Source of the DNA: a virus
DNA: 37,751 bases
Direction: 5' to 3' (one strand)
IMG/VR virus record: IMGVR_UViG_3300046087_000028
Coordinates: 1-37,751 of that record
Below the pieces are notes generated by a model, which was not told the DNA's origin, searched no databases, and saw only the letters and a list, made by a program, of their open reading frames with translations. Position numbers and translations under genes: made by a program. Below are positions 3,653-37,736 of this stretch, piece after piece; within the stretch, counting starts at the first letter, position 1; every line of letters starts with the position of its first letter.

Positions 3653-4349
3653 CGCAACTGAGACTACTGCACCAACTGACGCCCTTGGACTTGTTAGTAT
3701 GAACCCAGGGATGTTGACAGACAATGTTGACACTGCTGACATTGTTGACACCGCTGACGCTGTTGAAGAAACTGCTAGCCTGCAAGACCAGCTTGCATTG
3801 CACGACGCAATGACTGAGACTGCTGCGCCTGCTGACGACGCTACACCTGTTGACGACGTTGCACCTGACTGGACGTCTGACCGCATGGTAAAAATGGACG
3901 CTGACTTCAAAGAAACTATGGGGGTAGGCGTCAAAGAAGCGTATGACATGTTCAATGAGATACGCGCTGAGTTAACTACTTTACGCGAAACAAAACAACA
4001 AGACAGCGTAACGCAAGCAGCGACCACGATTCAGAAAGCCTGGGGTGTGAATGACGCTGAGTTTACACGTCGCGCTTCTGAAGTCGCTGCCTACGTTAAG
4101 ACGCTACCTGAAGCAACGCAAGCAGCGGTTGATAATGTAGATGGGGTACAGCTTGTTTGGCAGCATTTGCAATCACGCCGAGCAACCAGCAACGCGACGG
4201 GCGGTAAGCAAGGCAACACGTCGAGCGGTACTCCGCAGTCGTTTAGTCGCGCTGACATCACACGGTGGATGATGACAGAGCCTGCAACGTACAACAAGTA
4301 CGCTACAGCGATTGCCGCAGCGCGTTTAGCTGGGCGTATCACTGACTAG
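3633..4349 (+). CDS. Capsid assembly scaffold protein
   Basis: It is probably the internal scaffold that guides prohead assembly and is then released. The 238-residue product is strongly acidic at its N-terminus (many Asp, Ala, Thr), with a helical, charged middle and a polar C-terminus, and it lies directly between portal and major capsid, as T7 gp9 does. A clear AGGAG precedes the ATG, which lies inside the end of the portal gene. Its TAG stop (4347-4349) forms the first bases of the repeat element that follows. No enzymatic motif is visible. Identification is by composition and position. Confidence 0.78.
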   Translation: MLNNQSNATETTAPTDALGLVSMNPGMLTDNVDTADIVDTADAVEETASLQDQLALHDAMTETAAPADDATPVDDVAPDWTSDRMVKMDADFKETMGVGVKEAYDMFNEIRAELTTLRETKQQDSVTQAATTIQKAWGVNDAEFTRRASEVAAYVKTLPEATQAAVDNVDGVQLVWQHLQSRRATSNATGGKQGNTSSGTPQSFSRADITRWMMTEPATYNKYATAIAAARLAGRITD

Positions 4350-4540
4350 TACAGCTGTACGCTACCGATCAAGCCCGCTGAGAATCGCCTGGGAGGCACG
4401 CTAACTACCAAGCATACAAACGTAGCTGAGCGACGTTAGCGTGTCTGCTACCCACCTTGTAAGCCCCTTAGCGGCTGTTCCTGATCGTGTAGCCGGCACT
4501 CACCTACGCTGTTACCGATCGTTAAAGTACGCGTGTACTA
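4347..4540. repeat. Dyad-bounded intergenic element, copy E1
   Basis: The outer arms 4348-4370 and 4517-4539 are largely complementary. The left arm contains the perfect palindrome GTACAGCTGTAC, and both arms carry GATC. Inside, 4397-4405 (CACGCTAAC) pairs perfectly with 4435-4443, 4387-4390 pairs with 4394-4397, and 4375-4381 can pair with 4468-4474. The element begins inside the scaffold stop codon and ends 43 bases before the capsid start. Related copies lie at 13597, 23249 and 31190. Its right-hand blocks match the other copies better when E1 is read in reverse, so its orientation is uncertain. Function unknown. Confidence 0.8.
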
Positions 4541-13400: not shown

Positions 13401-13599
13401 CGGCTACACAACACTCGAAAAGTACATGGCTAACCTGGGGAAGTACAGCGGCCGTAAGTACAACTACATGGGCAACCGCAAAGTACGTACCACTGCTGCC
13501 GTCCACGAGAAGCCTGCTCACGATTGCGCCTTCTGTGACAACCTAGTAGCCAACAATCTAAGCAGCGGTTTCATTCGTCACCAGGCTTCACTAGCGTAG
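10453..13599 (+). CDS. Internal virion protein with M23 peptidase and lysozyme-like domains
   Basis: This 1048-residue core protein probably opens peptidoglycan during DNA entry. Residues 1-600 are Gln-rich and helical. An M23 (LytM) zinc endopeptidase domain follows, with H644-x3-D648 (HTGLD), a FAHLS strand and H729-L-H731. Near residues 860-970 there is a lysozyme/SLT-like fold with candidate catalytic E884 (YESAGTFSP), then GFVGLIQFG. T7 gp16 carries only a transglycosylase, so having two different wall-cutting activities in one chain is notable. ACAGGAGC precedes the ATG. The TAG stop is the first three bases of repeat E2. Confidence 0.85.
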   Translation: MKIQPIGFQFPQQQQIDVAPVVVDTPASVTALDITNQGYAAAERANQQYVQTTQQATQSTQQTAQILQQNSQSIAQSQNAVLQQKQQSSNNFAVSLQNIQKGVGDMMNYNIELAKIDDTRFKEAADKSARMLAAQDKIDHDDRKAKVVGKLEQLSGAWIKNGMIREYGATAYLDMVAKEVAAAKLDGDSTTTLTQKYAQPAQDYSKEVYTEEQKAAEIVVLKQREVDKRQLLAPLNVIIAKIKTSEGRDAGEVAKQWAELTAGMETIMADKRFSQVTRLESVAMALEAGTAGMSTSNENYQKMNNAASAYRNVTAFAAQQRIKANNSEIGPQEYEDSVRQKALELGVSGYQPADLNAELKFVEERLRVDNSITTMRKNAVLSETEGIEADNAIVGGLAIDAVLDPSGAGSTIRAVAKKGADKNAIEATRVADDFIKFRATDKQQYDAARAAKQTEISRVGANFNSWFVSNTKTPGASSQNPAVAKQLEMLRTLSGITPEQVQGGQLTAEQVNLMQRSAEAIQQSLIAEQVVDDKNFANKLQEFSRYGLFLNEADMKTSRKSFTQKIDAYMQRKSDIEAQSAVIKPVQGMTGTFKQGTIKQLAKRNYAGSSMVVPFTAAVANSMADGTSAAGQLYGDPRGGSRVHTGLDFGVPTGTEVLSTIDGVVQYVEPITTVGYGLNVGVKGADGLIHYFAHLSAANVVVGQQVSAGEVIALSGNSGGSASKSMDEHLHIGAYREGGEVFNPAHILSKAAVNNGSAKAPRTAGYSQANIPRGATPIGKNQYLLNGVLFKTPSGPPARTTTGSNSPLMQLGGPARAVTPAAAKPVSNSFASNRASDYVANIAPDHHHGYTILANDKPFATAINRVANKYGMPGQWLADVIAYESAGTFSPSIDNQMGFVGLIQFGEAVASDMGVTNSQLRNATRLQQIEYVDRYLALRLRQSGVKAYKGPEWLVAGINQGNVGIQQVDKHGAKAILDPANSDGYTTLEKYMANLGKYSGRKYNYMGNRKVRTTAAVHEKPAHDCAFCDNLVANNLSSGFIRHQASLA

Positions 13600-13784
13600 T
13601 ACACCTGTACTCTACCGATCAAGCTGGTCATCAAGCGGGCAACTGATCAGACATGCGCTCAGCGGGGTCGCTAAGGTAGCTAGGAGGCACGCTACACGGC
13701 TATCTAACCAAACGTACACGCGTTACCTACCGTACGCTACAGGTCATCCTCAGAGGGCTTGATCGTTAGCGTACAGACGTACTA
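13597..13784. repeat. Dyad-bounded intergenic element, copy E2
   Basis: The outer arms 13598-13623 and 13758-13783 pair at 22 of 26 positions. The left arm contains GTACACCTGTAC and both carry GATCAAG or its complement. Internal blocks TCAGCGG, TCGCTA and AGGCACGCTA are shared with the reverse complement of copy E4 (about 32 of 41 positions by eye), as is CATCCTCAG near the right arm. The element starts in the stop codon of the upstream gene and ends 41 bases before the next gene. GTACTACCTATAGCAGC after the right arm resembles the sequence after E3. Confidence 0.85.
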
Positions 13785-13825: not shown

Positions 13826-16800
13826 ATGGCAGACCTCATCACATCAACGAAACGTAAAGTAGCTACCGGCGAAGTACGCTTCGGTGCTACGCCAGCACCC
13901 CCTGACAGCTTACCGCCGCTACCTGCTGCACCTGTCGCACCGGCTGCACCTGTCGCACCGGCTGCACCTGTTGTACCTCCACAGCCTCCAGACCCGTTAC
14001 CACCTGAAGCGGCAGTTAGCGACCAACCCCCAAATATAGCACTAGCACCTCCTGCTGACATTGCTGCACCGGCTAACGACCCGATACCTGGTGACATTGC
14101 TGCTGACCCCACGTTAATGAGGAGCGTCTCTTTTGAGCGTGGCAGCGGGCAGCAGTTTGAACGCCCTGTTGAGATGGTTGGCAGCCAGATTGCTGCTGCT
14201 GTGCTGCGTCCTGCTGCTAACGCGGCGATTAACAGCGCACAGAACGAACGCGACATCAGCAACGCGTACATTGACAGCTTGAAGCCGGAGGATTACGTGC
14301 CGTACGTTATCAACCAACCGGGTCTGTCGTCGCTGATTGCTGATACAGCTGACCAGCGGCAGGCTATCTTCGGTCAGTACGTACGCGAGAATGAAACAGC
14401 TCGTCAATACGGCGACGCTGTGACAGCCGCAGCGCAAGCAGCTAAAGACAAAGCGGCTGCCAGTAGCAGTGTAGGCGACGGACTTGACTGGGTGCGTGAC
14501 ATCATGGGCAGGCCCAACGGCGCACGTAACTACTCCGCGCCTATCGCGCTTAACCAGCAAACGCAGCAATACGAGGCAAACTGGCTGGGTGCCGTGTTGT
14601 ACCCGCTTGGCGTCCTACAGAATACTGTGATGGGGGCAGCACTCGACGGGCGGCTGCTGTTACGTCAGCTGGGGAACGCGTTGCCGCCGCAGCACCGTGC
14701 TGACGCTGACAAGTTTTTACGCAACAGTCCTCTGCTGCGCGACAACGCCATCGTTAACTTCGTGCTTAACAAAAACAAGTACGACGACGGTAAAAGCAAC
14801 ACACTAGAGGCTATACGTGGGGCGCAGTACTCGTTTAGTGACGACCAGGGTGAAGGTCTCGGTATCGGGTTGCAGCCTACTAGGACTAATGTTAGCGTTA
14901 GAGGCGCTGGTCCGACTGCTGTCAGCGTGCCTGGTAAGCTACGTACCCCTGCGGTGGGATTCGGTCCTATGGGGTTTGTACTACCAGGCGTAGCGTTACC
15001 TGACAATTTCACTATACGTGGGGTGCCGTTTCTCAACAACGTCGATGTTAACCCATCAAAACTAGTTGGGTTTGCTGCTGATGTAGCTCTCGGTTTCAAA
15101 GTTGACAAGCTGCTCAGTGTCGCCGCTAAAAAGCTGGGCATCGGGGCACGCACATACAACAAAGCATCTCAGCAACTCACAGCCGCTGCAACGCCACCAC
15201 GACCTCAGCTAATGCTGCCGCCTGGACGTTCACTGCCGACAGGTAACGGTGTACCAGTTGGTGGCGCACTTGCTAGAACCAGGGCGCTGGTGACGCCTCC
15301 AGGTGCAAGCCGCACGCTTGTAGTACCAATTGCTACTCCACGATTATTATCGCCAGCGCAACAACTCCCCACTGTACTACCCGTACCACGTCGCCCTTTT
15401 CGTGCTGTGGAACAGTTGCAAGGCACACCCCCGCGACCTATGTTGATGCCGTCGCGACAGACTGAACTGACGGCGCTCGGCAAGCTACCCGAGGCCAGCG
15501 TCCGCAAACCGCTTGACGTGTTAAAGCCACTAGATGTGGGGCCATCTGAGTCGTTGCGTAGTCGCGTTGAAGACCTCGTTAGCAAAATGGACGACATCTT
15601 TAACGACCCTGACAATGCGGCGCTGCTAAAGAAGTACGACTTTCAGGCTGAGCCTATCGCTGACAAACTTGCTGCTGTCAACGACTACATCACCAAGGAA
15701 GTTATCAAGCGCCCCAACAAATTAATTAAGGCGATGTCTACTGAAACGAGTCCTATCGTGCGCGTCATCAAAGAACACCTGACGAATCCCAGCTGGTGGG
15801 ACGAGCCAGGTGGTGTACGCCTCGCCGAGCAGCTTGAAACGTTAATTACAGCTAAGCCTAAAGCGTTGACTAAAGCGCTAACTAACGCGGGGGTAGACGT
15901 TGACGAGCTGCTAGTTACCATCCGGGGCGCAGTACCTGAGCAAGAAGCTGGTAGTATTATCCGTGAGGCACAACAAGCGCTGCCAAAACTAGACCCTGTA
16001 CTTGACGCAGCTAACGAAGCTACTGTAGCGCAACATCTGAAGGACGGCATCAAAGGTAAGCTAGACGAAGTAGTTGAGCTGCAAGACGAGACAGTTGATA
16101 TGGGGCGTCGCACCGTTGACCCGGAGCTGTTACCTTCCCCCGTTGACGTAGCCGCTGACGCTGCGGTAGCAACAAAGCTACCGACCCGCGCTATAGCTAA
16201 CCAGAAAGCCTACCACGGCACCCGCGTAGAGAACCTCGACATCGCTGCTATCGACCCTACTATTGGGGGAGCACGCAACGAACTCGGTACCGGTGTCTAC
16301 ACTTACGGTAACAAGGCAGACGCGCTACGACCGGCAAAAGCTGACGTAGCCGCTAACCTACCTGACGTCGAAGGTCGTACATTTGGCGACGGGGTAATTC
16401 ACCAAGTTGAACTCAACGGTAATGTCATTGACGGCGCTGCCGAGCTACCCCAAATAAAACAACTAGCCGTTGACGCTGCGCCTAGCACGCTGCGTGATAT
16501 CGTTGCTGCCTCACCAAGCAATTCTATTGTGGGGATACTTGACCACGTTAGCGCCAACGCCTCAGAAGAAGCAGCATTAACTTTTCAGCGGATGTTCGCT
16601 AAGATGCTGCGACTCAAAGACGTACAGCACATTAACGTCGGCGGCATAACATCAACGATTGACACAAAAGGTGTCCTGACAGTTGGCGTCACCCCGGCAA
16701 AGGGTGCAGGTGCCAACATACCGCACGAAACTATGCTGCGTAACCGACTTAAAATGGAACAGCAGGCAGCTGACATCACTGGGTCGCAGTTTCTCCGTAG

Positions 16801-17452: not shown

Positions 17453-20400
17453 ATGGTATATTGCGCACCAAACCCCACAAATAACGTAGCGCCGCCTAAC
17501 CGTGCTGTAGTGTGGGACGCTGCTACGTTGACAACAATTAAAAAGCGAGCTGCTGACCGCGCGAAAGCTCTCAAGGCGTTAGCGCTAAGCACCCCAAATA
17601 ATAGAGCTAGCCAGACAGCGATGGCAGTGCAAGAATACTGGGAGTCTATCGTGTTCGACAGCGGCAAGCTCGCTAACCTACAACCAAACAAGCAAGCAGG
17701 TGCAGCGCAGTGGCTAGCGGACAATCTGGGCCAGCGCATCGGCCAAGTCGCAGACGTACGTGAGCCGCTGCTTAACGTGCGACGGCAAGTAGACGGCAAC
17801 CTTCGTGAAGCAGGCATCTACAATATGATGGGGGCACATGCCGCCTTTGTAGATGCAGTCAAAGCTACTGGCGTTAAACTAGACGCTGTTGACTTAGAAC
17901 GTTTCATCGAGGAAGGCTTAACGCCTCAGCGGCTGGCAGTCTACGGTAATTCCCCCATACAGCAGGCAGAGCTACTGTCGCGCTACAACAACTTTACGGC
18001 TGATATGCTGGGCAAGGGCTTCGACCAGCAGCAGTTAACTGACTTACTGGACAAGGCCAACGGCATCATGTCACATTGGGATGAGATGCGTGCTATCAGC
18101 CTGTCAACTGGTAAGGACGTTAGCGAGATGGTGAACATCGGCTACAAGCCACGCATCTTTACAGAACAAGCTGAAAGTATGCTGCAAGCAGCAGGCGCGC
18201 TTGACGACTTTGTTAGCAAGTCACGCGGCACCTGGGTTTACCTCGCCGAAGATCACGCAGTTGCAAGTAAGCTGTTAGGCGTTACGCCTGCTGAGCTAAC
18301 TAACTTCGTGGCAGCACCAGGACAGTTTGCTGAGTTCCTTTCAAAGAACGTTAGCGACGACCAGCTTGACCTGCTTATTGACAGCGGCATACTATCGAAG
18401 ATACCTATGTTGGGGTCTGACGTTGCAGAGTACCTAACGCTTAAGTACAAGATACCACTAACTAGCGCCGAGGTGTTTATCCATGACCCGGTAGCTGCCT
18501 CCAGCGGGCTTATCCGCAAGATGGAGCGTGGTGCGCAAGAGTCAGCGATGTTTAAGTACGCGTCAACTGAAGGCATCAAAGCAGGCTGGGCAGTAACTCC
18601 TGATGTCGCGGCAAGCAACAGCGTCTACAGCAAGTTTGTACCGCTGAGTAGCGTGACAAACAGAGCAAGCGACACTGCGTTTGTCCACCCCACAGTAGCA
18701 GCTAATATGTTGGGGCTTCTGCGAATTGCTGCATCGCCCGCTGAGATGTCAAAGGCGTCACTAGCGCTCAAGTGGCTACGTAGTAACTTCAGTAAGCAAG
18801 CGTTAGGCAACCCTATTGGTCTCTCAGTGTACCTCAGCGGCCAGATACTCAGCGGCATGGGATCTACTGTTGGGCGTGGCGCAGGTTTGACAGACTACTT
18901 TACGTCGCTGATGGACATCTCGTTGCTGACAACAAAAGGACTAGCAGCGTTTGACAACGTTAAGCCGTTCCGCATGTTAGACAATGGTCCTGTAACGCAC
19001 CGTGAGTTTGTAGCTCGTACACTGCGTATGTTCTCTCACGACATCTTACCCGGTATCGACGTCAGCGGCACAGGTAGTGGCCTGCTAGATTTCAAGCAGC
19101 TGTCCCCGGCGTACGCACGTAAGCAACTAACAGCCGTTATGTTTGCTGGGCAATACGGTGGCGTACGCGGTGCAGCAGGCGAAGCAGGTAAAGCGTTACA
19201 ACAGAAAGCTGACGCGTTGTTCTTACCTGGGCTGCGGTTAGCTTCGATGATTGACATGGCAGGACAACTGGCAGTCGCACGCGGTAAAGCTACACTGGGG
19301 TACGGCAGCAGTAAGTCGGCTGTTAAGCAAGCTGATCAGATGCTCTTCGGCTGGGACAACACTCGCTTCTCAACGTGGGAAGAAGTCAGCGGCGAAGTTA
19401 AAGCAGCGTTCCCCATGTTTGATGATGTGGGCAACATCCCGCGTGCTGTCAGTAGCGTTGCACCGTTCTCGTCGTGGGCTATGCAAAACCTGCCGTTACA
19501 GCTACGTGACATGTTACGTCAGCCGTCTAAGTGGCACAACTACGCTCGCATGACAGCTATGTGGAATGACTCACGGATGGGGAGTGACACGCTAGAAGCT
19601 GGCGGCATGCAAGACTGGGAACGTGACAAGTACGGTCTCGTATTGCACAACGACCCAGCCTCTAAACAGACGACTATGCTGTTCCACGGTGATTTCGACC
19701 CTCGCTGGGGTTCGTTAACCTGGGTGATGTCACTTGGGCCTGACAGCAGCGCATCTGCTAAGCGCAACGACCTCAACGGCAGCGCCCAACAAAAGAGAGT
19801 CAACGCACTTATCAGCAAGACAATGTTCGCCGGGGCTTACAAAGCTATTAGCGGCATCGACCCGCTAACCGGCGTTAAGCGTGACGACTCACCTATCGAG
19901 TTTGAGCAGTTTGGCGGAATGAACATGCCTCCTGTCGTAGCGTCTTTGCTCTCGATGATGCCAGTGCTTGCTGCTGCTGACCGGCTGCCAATTATCAGCG
20001 GCACGCAAGCGTTACTTGACCCTCGCACTAACGCTGTCATTAAACCCGCAGTAGACGGCTGGCTAGGCAACCAAGGCAAGCTGCGCCCCAAACAACTAGA
20101 AGGTATCGATGCTACGCTACAAGTCCTCGGCGGCAGGGTACGCGTCGTAGACCGGCTGGCTAACATGAAGATGACTTGGCGTGACACTGAAAGACTGCTG
20201 GGTACGCTAACTAAAGAGCAGTCAGTATCGCAGCAAAAGCTAGCAGCAGACCTTGCGGCAGGCCACGTCAAAGAAGACAGTGACAGTTACCGCCGACGCG
20301 TCGGTGCTATCAACCAGATGACTGACGCCGTATTGCAAATCAACATGGATTTGGGGCGCATTGAACGCTGGGCAGAAGCTAACAACTTGCCATCTTCTGA

Positions 20401-23248: not shown

Positions 23249-23433
23249 TAGTACACCTGTACGCTACTGATCAAGTGCTGCTACTGGACTGTTGGCTAGC
23301 GTGATCGTACGTCGCCTACAAGGGGTCTACAAGGGGTCTACAAGGCACGCGGATAACTAGCCGGTACGTTTGTATGGTTAGCTACTAGCTGCTGTTACAG
23401 GGGCAGTGTGATCGTGCGCATACAGGTGTACTA
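23249..23433. repeat. Dyad-bounded intergenic element, copy E3
   Basis: Left arm 23250-23275 and right arm 23410-23432 pair over most of their length. They contain GTACACCTGTAC and ATACAGGTGTAC, and GATC occurs three times (23269, 23303, 23410). The interior has a short tandem GGGGTCTACAA and the shared core CAAGGCACGC. It lies between convergent operons, 105 bases after the lysin gene and just before the terminator. TACTACTATATAAG after the right arm looks like a -10 region. Confidence 0.85.
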
Positions 23434-23448
23434 CTATATAAGCAGCAT

Positions 23449-23495
23449 AAAGCCCCCTGGCAACTTACCACGCGGTAGGTCATCAGGGGGCTTTT
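23449..23495. terminator. Bidirectional intrinsic terminator between convergent operons
   Basis: AAAGCCCCCTG (23449-23459) pairs with CAGGGGGCTTTT (23484-23495), flanked by A and T tracts on the two sides, so it can stop both the rightward late transcript and the leftward early transcript. A TACC/GGTA inner hairpin sits in the 24-base loop. The minus-strand nuclease gene ends at 23500. Confidence 0.9.
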
Positions 23496-23499
23496 GTCG

Positions 23500-24408
23500 T
23501 TAATGTACCCCAGGGTTAATGTTTGCGCCGTCGTCTGTGCCTGCTACCGCGCGGTAACTTAACGGCTGTCTGTCAGCACGCTGGGCAACCAGCTCAGAGA
23601 ACCTCTCGATGATGTCGTCTGTGTCGCGTACCTGCCACCAGTTATCGTTACACTCGTACAAGTAGTTAGTCCACTTAGTCATCGTCATTGTCGTGGGTAG
23701 CTTACCCCCAATAACAGGAGGTGGTTGTACTACTCGCAGCAACCCAACAATATCGTAGTCGCTAACTGCTGCAAGCCTCGGGACAACCGTAGCGTACCGT
23801 GCAACGCGGCTTTCAATGACGTGTTCAGATATCCGCATCAGCGTAAACTGGTTTGTCCCCCTGTTGAACACCAGAAACGCAGGCACCACAGTTGCTGCAC
23901 TGCCTTCAGATGCTAACCGCTGCCGGTACGTATCCGTGTAGAACGCTAGCTGCGACAGATAACCGTAGTCGTCTGTCGGTTCGTTGCGGAACTTAGTCGC
24001 TAAGTGCGGGGCCATCGACTTGCATTCGATAACAACGTGGTCGTCACCTTGCTGCACAACAAAATCAGCGTGACCTGCTATGCCGTGTGCAGTTAGCCGC
24101 TCCTCCTGTAAGAACTCGATGGCTGCCAGTGACAGCGTTTCGGCGGCTACTTGCTGAATCAGCATACCGTTAACCATCGACAACACTCCGCCCGCAGTGA
24201 ACGAACGCTTACCACCGTACCAGCGTTCGACGGCCTGTAAAATAAACGGCCTGCCAATTTTACTAGCACGGTAGTGTACGTCCCCACTATCAACGTAAGC
24301 TGGGGCACTGACAACACGCTGCATGATGCGGTCGTAATACTCGTCAGGTACGTTGCGCTGGCCTGACAACTTAAAGAACTCAGCTAGCTGCTCAAAGAAC
24401 TCACTCAT
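23500..24408 (-). CDS. PD-(D/E)XK (RecB/Cas4-like) nuclease
   Basis: This 302-residue protein is probably the phage exonuclease that degrades host DNA or processes replication ends. It has the fold's core: HYRASKIGRP near residue 45 (motif I region), GHADF with D115, E128-C-K130, and Q153-L-A-F-Y157, the QxxxY motif of the RecB/Cas4 branch. No four-Cys cluster of a Cas4 iron-sulphur site is visible. It is the last gene of the leftward operon and its start overlaps the HTH gene by 8 bases, with GGAAAG upstream of the ATG. It may take the place of T7 gp6 exonuclease (inference). Confidence 0.85.
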   Translation of the reverse strand: MSEFFEQLAEFFKLSGQRNVPDEYYDRIMQRVVSAPAYVDSGDVHYRASKIGRPFILQAVERWYGGKRSFTAGGVLSMVNGMLIQQVAAETLSLAAIEFLQEERLTAHGIAGHADFVVQQGDDHVVIECKSMAPHLATKFRNEPTDDYGYLSQLAFYTDTYRQRLASEGSAATVVPAFLVFNRGTNQFTLMRISEHVIESRVARYATVVPRLAAVSDYDIVGLLRVVQPPPVIGGKLPTTMTMTKWTNYLYECNDNWWQVRDTDDIIERFSELVAQRADRQPLSYRAVAGTDDGANINPGVH

Positions 24409-24733
24409 TGTCGCTTTCCTCGTCGTCGTAACAGTCGAAGTCGTCGTCGTCGCTACTCGTGAGGTAGTTGTCGATTACCTCAGCAATGATTTCCTCAGCG
24501 ATGCTATCGAGTATTGCGTTTTGCTCTTCTTCTGTTAGTTGGGGCAGCGGGTCGCCTTGCGTATAGTCTGGTTCGTTGGGTGTGGCCACGTTGTAAACTC
24601 CTCTGTGTATTTTGCTGATGGTTGATTGCGAGATGCCTGTTCGCCGTGCGATAGCTGACTGCGATTCGTTAGCGGCTAACGCGTTACGTATCAGCGCGAC
24701 ATCTACGGGATGTATCGGTGTCCTGCCTACCAC
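24401..24733 (-). CDS. Small helix-turn-helix DNA-binding protein with acidic tail
   Basis: The protein has 110 residues. Residues about 4-46 form an invertase/resolvase-type HTH (SQSAIARRTGISQSTISKIH), and the last 20 residues are almost all Asp, Glu and Ser. It begins with GTG overlapping the upstream stop. It is the only clear sequence-specific DNA-binding candidate here, so it might bind the repeated GTACA-NN-TGTAC sites (inference without direct support). The acidic tail could mimic DNA or contact polymerase. Confidence 0.75.
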   Translation of the reverse strand: MVGRTPIHPVDVALIRNALAANESQSAIARRTGISQSTISKIHRGVYNVATPNEPDYTQGDPLPQLTEEEQNAILDSIAEEIIAEVIDNYLTSSDDDDFDCYDDEESDNE

Positions 24734-30841: not shown

Positions 30842-31190
30842 AGCAAACCGCCGGACATGGATAGTGTGGTGTAGTAACGCGGGCCATACGCATCGTGAGA
30901 TCAGCGCAGTTGAGAATGTGAGAGGCGCAAAGCAACAACGCTAGCCGGTCACCGTTGCACTGCATTGGGGGAAAGTACAGCTCACGGTAAACGTCAGGCC
31001 GGTACTGCTCAAGGTACGTTCGTGACATGCGTACCTCTACTGTTGACATGCCGTGCGCCGTATGTATTAGTGGGGCGCAGTGCACAATAAACCAGTAGCG
31101 CTTGCGACTAAGCAGTTGCAGGGCAGCTACTATCCAGTGCAACGGTTGTCGCCAATCAAACACGGTGAAGCAAACAATTGAATCTTTCAT
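30735..31190 (-). CDS. Hypothetical protein between repeat E4 and the helicase gene
   Basis: The 151-residue protein is rich in Cys, Tyr, Trp and His (CFTVFDWRQPLHWIVAALQ; FIVHCAPLIHTAHG), of unknown function. Its ATG at 31190 directly abuts repeat E4, with no ribosome site. The last 35 codons overlap the helicase start, so the annotated end could differ if the frame were broken; codon use looks ordinary to the overlap. Cys/His pairs in the second half hint at a hydrolase, but nothing diagnostic is present. Confidence 0.6.
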   Translation of the reverse strand: MKDSIVCFTVFDWRQPLHWIVAALQLLSRKRYWFIVHCAPLIHTAHGMSTVEVRMSRTYLEQYRPDVYRELYFPPMQCNGDRLALLLCASHILNCADLTMRMARVTTPHYPCPAVCYEFALRYTSHRARRNVASTVAAIAVPTANNEGYNS

Positions 31191-31392
31191 AGTACGCCTG
31201 TATTGTAGTGATCGTGCCCGCTGAGGATGCCCTGTGGCAGGCGGTAATTAGCTCTGGTATGTTTGCCTACTAACCGGGGTAGCGTGCCTTGTACCCACCG
31301 TAGCGATGCCGCTGATCACGTACTAGCAGGTGCCATGCCACGATCAGTCACCCGTTGGACTAGCACGCGATCACGAAGGTACAGGTGTACTA
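31190..31392. repeat. Dyad-bounded intergenic element, copy E4
   Basis: Arms 31191-31213 and 31369-31391 pair over most of their length. They carry GTACGCCTGTAT and GTACAGGTGTAC, and GATC occurs four times (31210, 31314, 31342, 31369). Read on the minus strand it shares ordered blocks with E2, ending AAGGCACGCTAC and then CATCCTCAGCGGGC. The stop of the first pentapeptide gene lies in its upstream arm and the next gene's ATG abuts its other end. Confidence 0.85.
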
Positions 31393-31895
31393 GTAGCAGG
31401 GTTCATTCTGATGGCGTCCTGTATCCACTGCTTATGGTGCGTCCACCAGTAGAGTGCACCGATGTCCATTACTTCAATGGTCTTGTCGTCGAATGCCATC
31501 CACTCAGTGATGGAGTGGTATTGACAACCTATCTGTAGGTGCGTGGCAGTGTAAGCAATACGGTACTGCGCAGTCTGTAAGCTGATAACTTCACGACTGT
31601 TACCAACTGTATCATATAGCTTCGTGCCATCTAGATTAGCACAGCATAGGTTAGCGCGAGATAGGTTTGCGAGTTTTAAGTCAGCACCCCGTAAGTCAGT
31701 ACCCCGTAAGTCAGTACCCTGTAAGTCAGTACGCTGTAAGTCAGCACCCCGTAAGTCAGCACTCTGTAAGTCAGCACCTCGTAAGTTAGCCCCGTGTAAG
31801 TCAGCACTCCGTAAGTTAACGCCGTATAAGTCAGCGTCCTGTAAGTTAGCACCCTGTAAATTGTCAGGATATTCTTTACCGTTAATTAGCCGCAT
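31371..31895 (-). CDS. Pentapeptide-repeat protein, copy 1
   Basis: The protein has 174 residues. After MRLINGKEYPDN, about 17 consecutive A(D/N)LxG units occupy residues 14-100 and should fold as a right-handed quadrilateral beta-helix. A conserved C-terminal domain (SREVISLQTAQYRIAYTATH, then IGCQYHSITEW and ALYWWTHHKQWI) follows. Proteins of this fold include DNA mimics that inhibit gyrase, but nothing here shows that role. It is a neighbour duplicate of the gene at 31931. ATG 31895 with GAGAGAG upstream is preferred over the in-frame ATG at 31937. Confidence 0.85.
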   Translation of the reverse strand: MRLINGKEYPDNLQGANLQDADLYGVNLRSADLHGANLRGADLQSADLRGADLQRTDLQGTDLRGTDLRGADLKLANLSRANLCCANLDGTKLYDTVGNSREVISLQTAQYRIAYTATHLQIGCQYHSITEWMAFDDKTIEVMDIGALYWWTHHKQWIQDAIRMNPATSTPVPS

Positions 31896-31930
31896 AGTAG
31901 TCTCTCTCAGTAGTGTTAGTGTGACGTTGA

Positions 31931-32470
31931 TTACCACACCATAGGTGTACTAGTAGCCGGGTCCATTTCGATAGCGTCTTGTATCCACCGTTTACGATGC
32001 GTCCACCAATCAAGTGCGTCGGTGTCCATTGCATTGATAGTGTCGTCGTCGAATGCCATCCACTCGGTGATAGAGTGGTACTGACAGCCTACCTGTAGAT
32101 GCGTGCCAGTGTAAGTAACAGCGTACTTCTTAGTCTGTAAGCTGATAACTTCACGACCGTTACCAACTGTACCGTGTAGCTTCGTGCCGTGTAAATTAGC
32201 GCGGTGTAGGTTAGCGCGGACTAGGCTTGCAAGCCCTAGGTTAGCACCTCGTAAGTCAGCACCTTGTAAGTAAGCACCCCGTAAGTCAGCATCCCGTAAG
32301 CTAGCCTTTTGTAAGTTAGCATCCCGTAAGTTAGCACGCCGCAAGTCAGCACCCTGTAAGTCAGCACCAGTTAAGTCAGCATCCCGTAAGTCAGCACTCT
32401 GTAAGTCAGCACGCCGTAAGTTAGCACCGCGTAAATTGTCAGGGTATTCTTTGCCGTTAATGAATCGCAT
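31931..32470 (-). CDS. Pentapeptide-repeat protein, copy 2
   Basis: The protein has 179 residues. The same architecture as copy 1 begins MRFINGKEYPDN, with A(D/N)L repeats to about residue 100 and the same IGCQYHSITEW...WW C-terminal domain. The leaders of the two genes are nearly identical for about 37 bases before the ATG, and the two start codons are 575 bases apart, so this is a tandem duplication including the regulatory leader. The 3' end of this copy retains a truncated arm of repeat E4 (CTAGTACACC). Confidence 0.87.
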   Translation of the reverse strand: MRFINGKEYPDNLRGANLRRADLQSADLRDADLTGADLQGADLRRANLRDANLQKASLRDADLRGAYLQGADLRGANLGLASLVRANLHRANLHGTKLHGTVGNGREVISLQTKKYAVTYTGTHLQVGCQYHSITEWMAFDDDTINAMDTDALDWWTHRKRWIQDAIEMDPATSTPMVW

Positions 32471-32509
32471 GGTAGTCTCTCTCAGTAGTGTTAGTGTGAC
32501 GTTAATAAC

Positions 32510-33115
32510 TTATCCGCGTGGTCGGTAGCTTGCAAACACATCAAGCATACTACGCATACAGCTGCTTGCCACCCAACTAGATGACGCTGTAACAGTAGTG
32601 GACATCAACGCAACAAAGTCAGCTAGCCTCATCATGTCAGTGTCGCGATGCTGCTGACAGACTTCGATGTCGTTCTCTGAGGTGTAACGGTTGATAGCAG
32701 TCCACGCAAGTGCCGTATCGTTATGCATCTTGCGGTTGTTAATGCTGTTTACTGCGTAACGTGAGTCACTGTAGATTGCAACAGGGCCGGCTAGATGTTT
32801 AGCAACGTGACGGCAAGCGTGTAATACAGCACGCATCTCAGCGAGGTTGTTGCTTATTGACTCGCCTACTAGGATGCTACCAAACATACCGTGGATAATC
32901 TCAGGACCGGCAACATCCCCGTTGTCGTCGATAGCTTGTGACGTGACAACTAAACCTGTAGCAGCGCGAGAACTAGGGTTACCCGCTACCGTAGCAGCGT
33001 CGCAGTAGATACTCCATACGCTATTAATTGTGGGGCAGTCGTGATGTGCAGAGTGTAGAGTGTACGTATCAGCGACAGACAGTTCACGTAACGTAGGCAG
33101 AGTAGCGTGTGGCAT
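32510..33115 (-). CDS. rnhA: Ribonuclease H
   Basis: The 201-residue RNase HI-fold protein degrades RNA in RNA-DNA hybrids, for example during primer removal. Catalytic residues are in place: D39 (IYCDAA), E93 (NNLAEM), D117 (YSDSRY) and D166 (LADF), with H156 near the last strand. An N-terminal extension of about 30 residues precedes the first strand, and about 30 residues follow the last helix. The ATG at 33115 has CCGGGA upstream. It lies downstream of the ParB-like gene, with a terminator-like structure in between. Confidence 0.85.
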   Translation of the reverse strand: MPHATLPTLRELSVADTYTLHSAHHDCPTINSVWSIYCDAATVAGNPSSRAATGLVVTSQAIDDNGDVAGPEIIHGMFGSILVGESISNNLAEMRAVLHACRHVAKHLAGPVAIYSDSRYAVNSINNRKMHNDTALAWTAINRYTSENDIEVCQQHRDTDMMRLADFVALMSTTVTASSSWVASSCMRSMLDVFASYRPRG

Positions 33116-33273: not shown

Positions 33274-34170
33274 TTAGGCGGGTAACGTCAAGCCGGCAGC
33301 AGTCATAGCAGCTTCAGCCGCTTGCAAGCGTGCCATCAAATCGCTAGTCGTGACCTTCACGGTTTTGACTGGCTTAGCTAGGTTGCTTGCCCACTCATTG
33401 ATAAGCGCCATAGATTCAGGTTCACCTTGTGCGTCGAATGCTTCAACTTCTTGGTAGCATACTGCATCGACGAGTACCTTGTATTCACGGGCCATGTTGG
33501 CAGGCACAGACTCTTCGTTGTTCTCGATGTACTCGACAAACTCAGCAGTCAGCAGCTCAAGCTGTGCGTCAGTAGCGTATTGCATACCAGCTGCCTTCGT
33601 GCCGACGGTAGTGGCAATCGATAAGCCAGTCTGGAATGTGCAGTCGATAGCATCAACAAGCAACCGGGCAAACTTCTGCTTGACAGCTTCGCCGGGTGTT
33701 AGCTTGGCGTAGCTAGCCTTCACTGTTAACTTCTCAGCCGGTGTCATTGAACGGCTACCGTTGAAAGACTCTTGCAAGTGGGCAAGTACTTCTTTGCTAG
33801 TGACTTCGATGTACTCACACATTACGTAGCCGTCAATTGCGTCGCCTTCAGCGGGCATCCCACCCTCGGGGATGAGTGTCAGCTTGCCAGTTGCATTGAT
33901 GTAATAGTTCTCGCAGATAGTAGCAATAGCAACGGCACGGTGACGACCGCTAACCAGGTGACCCGCATCGTTCATGATGGCAATCACAGGGTACTGCCAT
34001 AGTTGGCCTTGCTTGACAATGCCACGGACAATACTGTCAACGCGACTCTGAATGATTGGCTCTTGTGCAGTAGAGACAGCAGCGGCGGCAGCTTTAAGCT
34101 GTTCGACGGTAGTAACCGCAAAGTAACGGTTGTGCGTAGCGTCTTGAAACTTGAGGTTAAACTCTGTCAT
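33274..34170 (-). CDS. ParB-like nuclease/NTPase-fold protein
   Basis: The 298-residue protein is the first gene of the leftward operon. Residues about 58-84 (YPVIAIMNDAGHLVSGRHRAVAIAT) show the ParB/Srx-type pattern, with the G75-R76-H77-R78 loop. The C-terminal half is helical with conserved Ala/Thr stretches and no recognisable HTH. Several phages encode ParB-like proteins that act as nucleases or regulators; which applies is unknown. ATG follows the leader ACACCCCACAGGTAACCACC, and three leftward promoters lie upstream. Confidence 0.75.
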   Translation of the reverse strand: MTEFNLKFQDATHNRYFAVTTVEQLKAAAAAVSTAQEPIIQSRVDSIVRGIVKQGQLWQYPVIAIMNDAGHLVSGRHRAVAIATICENYYINATGKLTLIPEGGMPAEGDAIDGYVMCEYIEVTSKEVLAHLQESFNGSRSMTPAEKLTVKASYAKLTPGEAVKQKFARLLVDAIDCTFQTGLSIATTVGTKAAGMQYATDAQLELLTAEFVEYIENNEESVPANMAREYKVLVDAVCYQEVEAFDAQGEPESMALINEWASNLAKPVKTVKVTTSDLMARLQAAEAAMTAAGLTLPA

Positions 34171-34419: not shown

Positions 34420-34495
34420 GTAACAAGTGTCACATGTGCCGGCTAGCTTGATCGTGGGCGTCAGTTAACCGGTGCGTGATCGATGGTGCCTATAT

Positions 34496-34524
34496 ATTAT
34501 AGCGCAGTTAGTAGCAACACGCAA
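34496..34524 (-). promoter_or_regulatory. Leftward promoter with perfect -10
   Basis: On the minus strand TTGCGT (34524-34519), 17 bases, then TATAAT (34501-34496). The structured repeat copy A begins seven bases upstream of the -35. Confidence 0.65.
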
Positions 34525-34530
34525 CACACT

Positions 34531-34577
34531 TGTGGCTGGGTTCACTCGCTTCGCTCGTTCTCTACGCCACGGCTGGC
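34531..34577 (+). repeat. Structured repeat, copy A
   Basis: GTGGC...GCCAC outer stem encloses TGGGTTCACT, a short inner hairpin (CGCTTCGCTCG) and GTTCTCTAC. It shares its outer parts with copies at 34944 and 37656, but its inner hairpin is shorter. ACATAGCAGA follows, as after copy C. Confidence 0.7.
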
Positions 34578-34743
34578 GACATAGCAGAACCCCAAAATAA
34601 AGTAGAGTAGCAGCGCTGGTAGGTAACCAGGCGGCGAGGTGTGTGATCGGGTGCGTCGTTAAGATGGGTAGAAGGCGTAGTAACAGGGCATCAGGTATCA
34701 CAGGGTGGTAAGTGGGTAGCGTACGTGTGTGATCGGGGTAGCA

Positions 34744-34800
34744 GGTACGGTTATCCGTACCTCACTTGATCGTGGGTAACAGGTGTACTACTATCGGCTG
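34744..34800 (+). promoter_or_regulatory. Half dyad element with rightward promoter
   Basis: A perfect hairpin GGTACGG-TTAT-CCGTACC (34744-34761) precedes TTGATC (34766-34771), a 17-base spacer containing ACAGGTGTAC, and TACTAT (34789-34794). This is the right arm of the dyad family without its partner, arranged as a sigma70-like promoter facing the 35347 operon. Confidence 0.55.
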
Positions 34801-34883
34801 TAACGTATGCTGGGTAAGGGTTGTAGCGTTTACTGGCTTATAAGGCTACGTAGTTATACGGTATACACGAAATTCAGTAGGCT

Positions 34884-34900
34884 GTATGATAGTCTCATAC
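34884..34900. promoter_or_regulatory. Inverted repeat, operator-like
   Basis: GTATGA-TAGTC-TCATAC is a perfect 6-bp inverted repeat with a 5-base centre in the control region, which fits a dimer-binding site or small hairpin. Confidence 0.4.
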
Positions 34901-34912
34901 GCTTCACATGCC

Positions 34913-34939
34913 TTGCGGGTTGCGGGTTGCGGGTTGCGC
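34913..34939 (+). repeat. TTGCGGG tandem repeat
   Basis: Three and a half uninterrupted copies of the heptamer TTGCGGG in the divergent control region, directly before structured repeat copy B. Confidence 0.75.
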
Positions 34940-34943
34940 CTGG

Positions 34944-35000
34944 TGTGGCTGGGTTCACTTGCTAGCTTCGCTAGCTGCGTTCTCTACGCCACCGCTGGCA
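34944..35000 (+). repeat. Structured repeat, copy B
   Basis: Same outer stem and flanks as copy A, with a longer inner hairpin GCTAGC-TTC-GCTAGC. Almost identical to copy C at 37656. It is followed at once by ACACCCCAAAATAA. Confidence 0.75.
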
Positions 35001-35100
35001 AACACCCCAAAATAAAAGTTACTCAGGGCGGTAACACGCCACTGCATCGTGATCGTGAACAATAGGCTGGCTGCCTAGCAACCCAGCTAAACAAGTCAAC

Positions 35101-35121
35101 CAACAGCCAACAGCCAACAGG
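35101..35121 (+). repeat. CAACAGC heptamer repeats
   Basis: Three tandem heptamers CAACAG(C/G), then CAACAACGG, and a short inverted repeat AACAA/TTGTT leading into the AT-rich stretch. Typical of iteron-like DNA, but function is not shown. Confidence 0.6.
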
Positions 35122-35346
35122 CAACAACGGTTGTTTTGTTTATATACCAGCCTGTTGATCAGTACTCAGGGCGGTAGGGCGATCGCGGTAAGTGGCACAT
35201 GTGACAGTTGGTACCCCACAAATAAAGTGGTAGCGACACAGCAACAACAAACGTAACGACGTTGTGAACGGTGGTTTACACTGTGAGTAGCAATACAGCA
35301 ACGACGTTACGGTAACATCCCCCACAAATAAGTAGAGCAGCATCGC

Positions 35347-37502: not shown

Positions 37503-37577
37503 TACGACGCTGGGTAAATTTTCTGCATGGCAGCTGTACACCGGCAACTACGACGTTGGGTAAATTTTCTGCATGGC
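37503..37577 (+). repeat. 46-bp-period direct repeat
   Basis: Two 29-bp copies beginning TACGACG(C/T)TGGGTAAATT start at 37503 and 37549. CAGCTGTACACC lies between them and GTACA-GTA-TGTAC overlaps the first copy's start. Confidence 0.7.
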
Positions 37578-37655
37578 GTCACGATGGCAGCTGCTACGAC
37601 GCTACGACGACGTTGGCTGCTACGGCCCTACCTCACGGCTCACTGCTCCCCTGCT

Positions 37656-37711
37656 TGTGGCTGGGTTCACTTGCTAGCTTCGCTAGCTGCGTTCTCTACG
37701 CCACCGGTGGC
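37656..37711 (+). repeat. Structured repeat, copy C
   Basis: Almost identical to copy B through TGTGGCTGGGTTCACTTGCT and the GCTAGC hairpin to GCCACCG. It lies 41 bases from the window's right end. Confidence 0.75.
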
Positions 37712-37736
37712 ACGCTACCCACATAGCAGATATAAT
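37708..37736 (+). promoter_or_regulatory. Possible rightward promoter at the right edge
   Basis: A perfect -10 TATAAT (37731-37736) is preceded after 17 bases by a poor -35, TGGCAC (37708-37713). It would transcribe out of the window, perhaps towards the gene that continues at position 1 in a complete genome. Confidence 0.35.

Follow-up and report, generated by a model that had tools for sequence, protein, structure and literature searches.

Four related elements of 185-203 bp, 770 bp in all, lie at or near gene ends in a 37,751-base viral record (the whole stretch analysed, called the window here), and I read them tentatively, at a probability of roughly 0.45, as dispersed operators or roadblocks that would be bound by protein at the ends of transcription units regardless of orientation. 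An earlier note on this DNA had offered a structured RNA, a shared promoter or operator, or a MITE-like element; the shared operator fits best, given the conserved arm sequence, its LexA-consensus and YGATCR sites, and the purifying selection on the arms. Conserved palindromic arms set as inverted pairs, free orientation and placement at the ends of transcription units all fit a DNA boundary that protein would bind. From sequence I infer the binding at the DNA level, for which the support is good, the roadblock function and the link to repression.

The virus and its relatives

Judged by its gene matches, the window comes from a Saffermanviridae-like short-tailed cyanophage, its terminase being 48% identical to that of Leptolyngbya phage Lbo240-yong1 and that of Pf-WMP4; the record may stop short of the whole genome. 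A late block occupies the plus strand and a replication block the minus strand, with recognisable genes for head, tail, DNA polymerase, primase/helicase and a Cas4-type exonuclease. No RNA polymerase gene was recognised in the window, and no tRNA or tmRNA was found there. Between the divergent operons lies a noncoding control region (34449-35185, assigned to neither strand). Two IMG/VR contigs, G001 and G002, are close relatives (terminase identity of 98%), and G003 (hereafter G3; L146-L148) is a farther one at 81%. G001 and G002 are fragments, and ortholog comparison is therefore limited to a single one for E4 and none for E3.

Four related elements at gene ends

All four copies described in the earlier note, E1 to E4, are present at the coordinates it gave, and the outer inverted repeats that it saw to begin with TAGTAC are end arms of the form TAGTAC-N4-GTAY-N6-GATC in every copy. 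The arm-pair pattern TAGTACNNNNGTAYNNNNNNGATC-N125-155-GATCNNNNNNRTACNNNNGTACTA matches exactly these four places in the window, where 100 dinucleotide shuffles lead one to expect none, and E2 as query retrieves E4 (8e-14), E1 (3e-9) and E3 (3e-6). E1 (4347-4540, minus, reversed relative to transcription) occupies the junction of the scaffold and major capsid genes, and E2 (13597-13784, plus) that of the peptidase gene and the next virion-protein gene; both have orthologs in G001 and G002. E3 (23249-23433, plus) lies where the plus-strand late operon ends and faces the convergent minus operon, and E4 (31190-31392, minus) belongs to the minus-strand replication operon and has an ortholog in G002 (4062-4255). 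Of the copies, which are about 8-10 kb apart, one each follows the packaging/scaffold block and the capsid/tail block, one is where the late operon finishes and one precedes the primase operon.

Gene ends directly adjoin E1, E2 and E4. Two copies do begin inside the upstream stop codon, E1 in the TAG of the scaffold gene (4347-4349) and E2 in that of the peptidase gene (13597-13599). E4 is indeed in the minus operon, where it shares bases with the stop codon of the minus-strand gene upstream and reaches into the ATG of the following gene. E3 lies about 100 bp past the last late gene and ahead of a terminator-like hairpin read from the sequence, AAGCCCCCTG...CAGGGGGCTTTT (23450-23496, plus, just 3' of E3), which was missed by a consensus terminator scan that allows loops of 3-8 only. 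Two adjacent duplicated genes (31371-32510) show a 15-nt repeat period that suggests pentapeptide-repeat proteins, and the arrangement of their copies differs in G002 and G3.

Since capsid, virion-protein and replication genes lie directly downstream of E1, E2 and E4, the elements might be promoters of the modules that follow. I think this improbable, however: E3 is followed by the terminator-like hairpin and a convergent operon and, having no gene downstream on its strand, does not fit a simple promoter role, and E1 is oriented opposite to E2. Furthermore, a scan covering E1, E2 and E3 found no sigma-70-like promoter near them, although phage-modified or alternative promoters would escape such a scan. 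Scanning near the same three elements also gave a terminator-like match on the minus strand (4323-4300), inside the scaffold gene.

The shared core claimed earlier survives in part. The interiors are indeed homologous, but the true counterpart of the core in E1 is AGACACGC on the minus strand, not the AGGCACGC at 4392. E1 is homologous to E2, E3 and E4 (read on the minus strand) in reverse, the interior alignment reaching z 6.9 reversed versus 0.2 forward. The homology extends beyond the arms: pairwise alignments between the interiors of different elements score above shuffles, and an HMM made solely from the interiors of the nine copies in the window, G001 and G002 places each of them at its own site.

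Sites within the arms

An interior of 137-155 bp is framed by two arms, each with a palindrome, GTAC-N4-GTAY, on the outside and a YGATCR site 6 bp inward of it. Positions 1-6, 11-13 and 21-24 (TAGTAC, GTA and GATC) are invariant in 18 of 18 arms from the nine copies in the window, G001 and G002. For Nostoc, the LexA consensus is RGTACNNNDGTWCB (Mazon et al., quoted in PMC3091678). Read outside-in, window arms match it at 14/14 in five of eight cases and at 13/14 in three. Complete matches include one arm each of E1 (4347-4370, plus), E2 (13761-13784, minus), E3 (23249-23272, plus) and E4 (31369-31392, minus), and the plus arm of E2 (13597-13620) holds AGTACACCTGTACT, identical to a predicted LexA box of Nostoc punctiforme (Npun_F1842). 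One position fails in the other arms of E3 (23410-23433, minus), E4 (31190-31213, plus) and E1 (4517-4540, minus), the last of which is exact on the opposite strand. Over the nine copies, 12 of 18 arms score 14/14 and six 13/14 against this Nostoc consensus.

Every exact match to RGTACNNNDGTWCB in the window, G001 and G002 falls within an arm, and the motif is absent from G3, Pf-WMP4, Lbo240-yong1, LPP-1 and A-4L. A partial, diverged single arm, TAGTACACCTGTTACCCACGATC, lies in the control region (34767-34793, minus) with its GATC spacing off by one; its nhmmer score of 5.9 bits is near noise level. The LexA box accounts for the outer 14 bp only, and arm conservation reaches position 24. The arms resemble cyanobacterial LexA boxes (PMC3091678) in matching the 14-bp palindrome, exactly or at 13/14. 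They differ in coming as pairs inside long conserved elements, at the ends of phage genes, and in the additional conservation of YGATC, which lies outside the LexA box.

The inner site contains GATC, which is scarce in this genome (31 in the window, versus 103 expected from a trinucleotide Markov model and about 50 from dinucleotide shuffles). The elements hold 13 of the 31, all in the form YGATCR, which is also taken by all eight GATC in the control region and by only one of ten elsewhere outside the elements. Consequently 21 of the 22 YGATCR sites in the window lie in the elements (13) or the control region (8), the sole cluster apart from the elements; the total is not depleted (22 versus 16 in shuffles) but concentrated. 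GATC is wholly missing from Pf-WMP4, Lbo240-yong1, A-4L and TR020 (L141, L142, L195 and L198), where 97-142 are Markov-expected in each. This absence from four genomes suggests restriction avoidance in the family, in which case the GATC sites kept in the elements are probably needed there. The G3 end region has 11 YGATCR in 460 bp (bases 427-888, window orientation), resembling the control-region cluster of the window.

RNA structure

The elements might instead act as RNA, either structured or in the form of RNase III-type hairpins at which transcript boundaries are processed; a long hairpin would be indifferent to orientation. They are positioned between transcription units, and E2 as RNA folds better than its shuffles (z -2.67). 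However, this gain comes from the arms alone, the interiors giving z of -0.2 to +1.1 on both strands. When pairs were counted in the outer stem, the compensatory changes whose absence the earlier note took as telling against an RNA were not there: 79.1% of stem cells are paired, versus 80.4% with right arms shuffled among copies, and double-change pairs number 2 versus 3.8. The arms of E1 are complementary at only 18 of 28 positions, and a left arm often resembles the right arm of another element more than its own; there is no coupling within elements. E1 is moreover reversed relative to transcription in comparison with E2, E3 and E4, and Rfam gave no match for the window or for E2. With no arm covariation, no excess interior folding and an inconsistent orientation to transcription, I give the RNA option very little chance.

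The same counting does detect covariation in a positive control, the hairpin downstream of the capsid gene in Pf-WMP4, Lbo240-yong1, LPP-1, JingP1 and Dor1: 92.9% of cells are paired versus 84.4%, and the covariation score is 0.190 versus 0.074, a value reached in 0 of 500 shuffles. This element of about 98 nt (L141, L142, L199, L203 and L204), with its compensatory stem changes, is likely a real RNA element in its own right. Pf-WMP4 carries it at L141:32379-32480 and 15683-15784, and Lbo240 also has a second copy.

Mobile regulatory cassettes of T4-type phages, or promoter early stem-loops, are units of a promoter and a stem-loop. Like them, the elements are small, intergenic and placed between gene modules, but they show neither a promoter consensus nor RNA covariation.

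Distribution, selection and mobility

The earlier note named a lack of relatives in phage genomes as a refutation; three other phage contigs do hold relatives of the elements (G001, G002 and L158). The same junctions are occupied by E1 and E2 in G001 and by E1, E2 and E4 in G002. Among 2.9 million IMG/VR viral contigs, the arm-pair pattern was found, besides the window, only in these two, and it was found in none of 84,980 species genomes; relatives with different arms would escape the pattern. E2 searched directly by BLAST matched none of 50,697 phage records. L158, whose capsid protein is 42% identical, has a diverged copy at the peptidase junction, again starting in the peptidase stop codon (HMM score 21.1 bits, E 3.7e-5, versus a best score of 6.0 bits in 1 Mb of shuffles). 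Its orientation is tentative at best, since the reversed fit is the better one but the interior taken by itself scores no higher than noise. L073 and L120, also from IMG/VR, hold no relative of the elements; in these two unrelated viral contigs several TAGTACNNNNGTACTA palindromes stand close together (L073:627-1070 and L120:574-850), possibly as operator arrays.

The scaffold/capsid and peptidase junctions of Pf-WMP4 and Lbo240-yong1 lack an element. An HMM search found no copy of the E1-E4 family in LPP-1, a close relative of Dor1, and this counts against the operator reading. So does G3, which has at three of the shared junctions elements of unrelated sequence with no LexA-consensus site. 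These belong to a family of four copies in mixed orientations, CCTGTGCCTCTCAGAC ... CTGATCCAACGTAGG, lacking TAGTAC arms (L147:12329-12524, L147:3066-3241, L146:12169-12349 and L146:4827-5010); three stand at the E1, E2 and E3 junctions and one at another place. If regulatory, E1-E4 make a clean case of a dispersed family whose genomic places are filled in a related phage by an unrelated sequence family. A search of IMG/VR with the G3-type end returned matches, G3 included.

In the arms of E1 and E2, 8 of 192 positions (4.2%) differ between the window and G001 or G002, whereas 20% of fourfold-degenerate sites differ; these comparisons have the window branch in common and so are not independent. 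Interiors diverge by 5-9% in E2, 10-25% in E1 and 35% in E4. The arms are under purifying selection at orthologous positions, which a site for replication, partition or recombination would explain too.

These data bear on a reading of the elements as mobile and MITE-like, with the arms as terminal inverted repeats, the TA ends as a target duplication and gene ends as places where insertion does no harm. Like MITEs (PMC10969869), the elements are noncoding, about 190 bp long, and have inverted ends with TA at both. The TA-bounded ends are sharp, the four copies are dispersed in both orientations, E4 is present in the window and G002 and missing at the matching place in G3, and insertion at a TA within a stop codon would still leave a stop. 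The TA belongs to the invariant arm, however, so TA alone cannot demonstrate target duplication. Unlike MITEs (PMC10969869), the elements are constrained in their arms where they stand and lack relatives in cellular genomes, and no active copies were seen. E1 and E2 keep nearly unchanged lengths across three genomes, with at most one indel. Profile searches recognised no transposase among the window genes searched, and no clean empty site was found in the relatives compared. An inert MITE is thus disfavoured by the constraint and by the lack of arm pairs in genomes, whereas a mobile ancestry is possible; for the mobile reading as a whole I would keep a modest share of the odds, the most that I grant any rival.

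Candidate binding proteins

Under the operator or roadblock reading, each element would be a platform of double-stranded DNA on which one or more sequence-specific proteins bind at the two inverted arms. The bound protein would separate neighbouring transcription units in either orientation and may keep the late genes silent in a repressed state; it may act at the YGATCR-rich control region too. According to PMC11812291, most Saffermanviridae can lysogenize with no identifiable integrase, and mitomycin C treatment preceded the recovery of Dor1. Lysogeny of this kind in the family, together with the origin of Dor1, makes a repressor role reasonable if this phage is temperate too.

Among named proteins, LexA, the host's own SOS repressor that responds to DNA damage, leads as a plausible candidate for binding the arms, put forward only because of the match to its consensus site. 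In integrase-less temperate cyanophages, LexA on paired arms might form a roadblock to elongation that silences the late blocks in the lysogen and is lifted by DNA damage, a specific scheme that I consider unlikely as it stands. Two phage genes encode speculative candidates. One (24401-24733, minus) encodes a small HTH protein that matches a PHROG transcriptional repressor (4e-7), with a Pfam HTH_38 match (5e-5) below the cut-off. The other (33274-34170, minus) adjoins the control region, and its product contains LVSGRHR, which I take to be a ParB-like motif; this product has no significant match in Pfam, PHROG or PDB, and its structure model is too poor for use.

The second gene raises the prospect that its product, or another phage protein, binds the elements as iteron-like or centromere-like sites for replication, partition or DNA architecture. 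The elements and the noncoding region beside the gene both hold YGATCR clusters, with similar clusters in the G3 end regions, the integrase-less lysogeny reported for the family might require a maintenance system, and the copies are spaced out along the genome. On the other hand, ParB identity comes down to a short motif, the spacing simply tracks module boundaries, and placement at gene ends is not required for replication, so I hold this to be a slim prospect.

Two known systems of mycobacteriophages come close. The stoperators, loosely comparable under the operator or roadblock reading, are dispersed repressor-binding sites that halt transcription elongation (PMC9283540), and the elements too are dispersed intergenic sites in a phage genome. 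Stoperators, however, are asymmetric and bound by a monomeric repressor, whereas the elements have palindrome-bearing arms of 24 bp in inverted pairs that frame a conserved interior of 137-155 bp, in four copies of variable orientation with a putative binder. The ESAS of Cluster K mycobacteriophages (PMC3203893) are likewise dispersed and phage-specific, imperfect inverted repeats that are conserved at certain genes, but they have 17-bp arms and mostly 4-13-bp spacers and lie beside start codons and the 13-bp SAS, whereas the elements have 24-bp arms, measure about 190 bp and lie mostly at gene ends. The elements bear on repression and induction in Saffermanviridae with no identifiable integrase, and on late transcription in these phages; with four defined DNA fragments and a named candidate binder in LexA, the question of repression is directly testable.

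Other repeats in the window

The motif CCCCAMAAATAA has 13 matches in the window at no more than one mismatch, versus 0.22 expected, with exact copies at 17473, 23201, 25087, 35214, 35320 and 36958; some copies come a short way before start codons. Three copies of another repeat, GTGGCTGGGTTCACTTGCT...CGTTCTCTACGCCACC, are noncoding (34529-34577, 34944-35009 and 37656-37721) and are at most 92% alike over 66 nt. Near the right end, a two-copy tandem repeat with TTTTCTGCATG (37503-37594) resembles the two-copy repeat of the G3 end region (L147:19498-19590).
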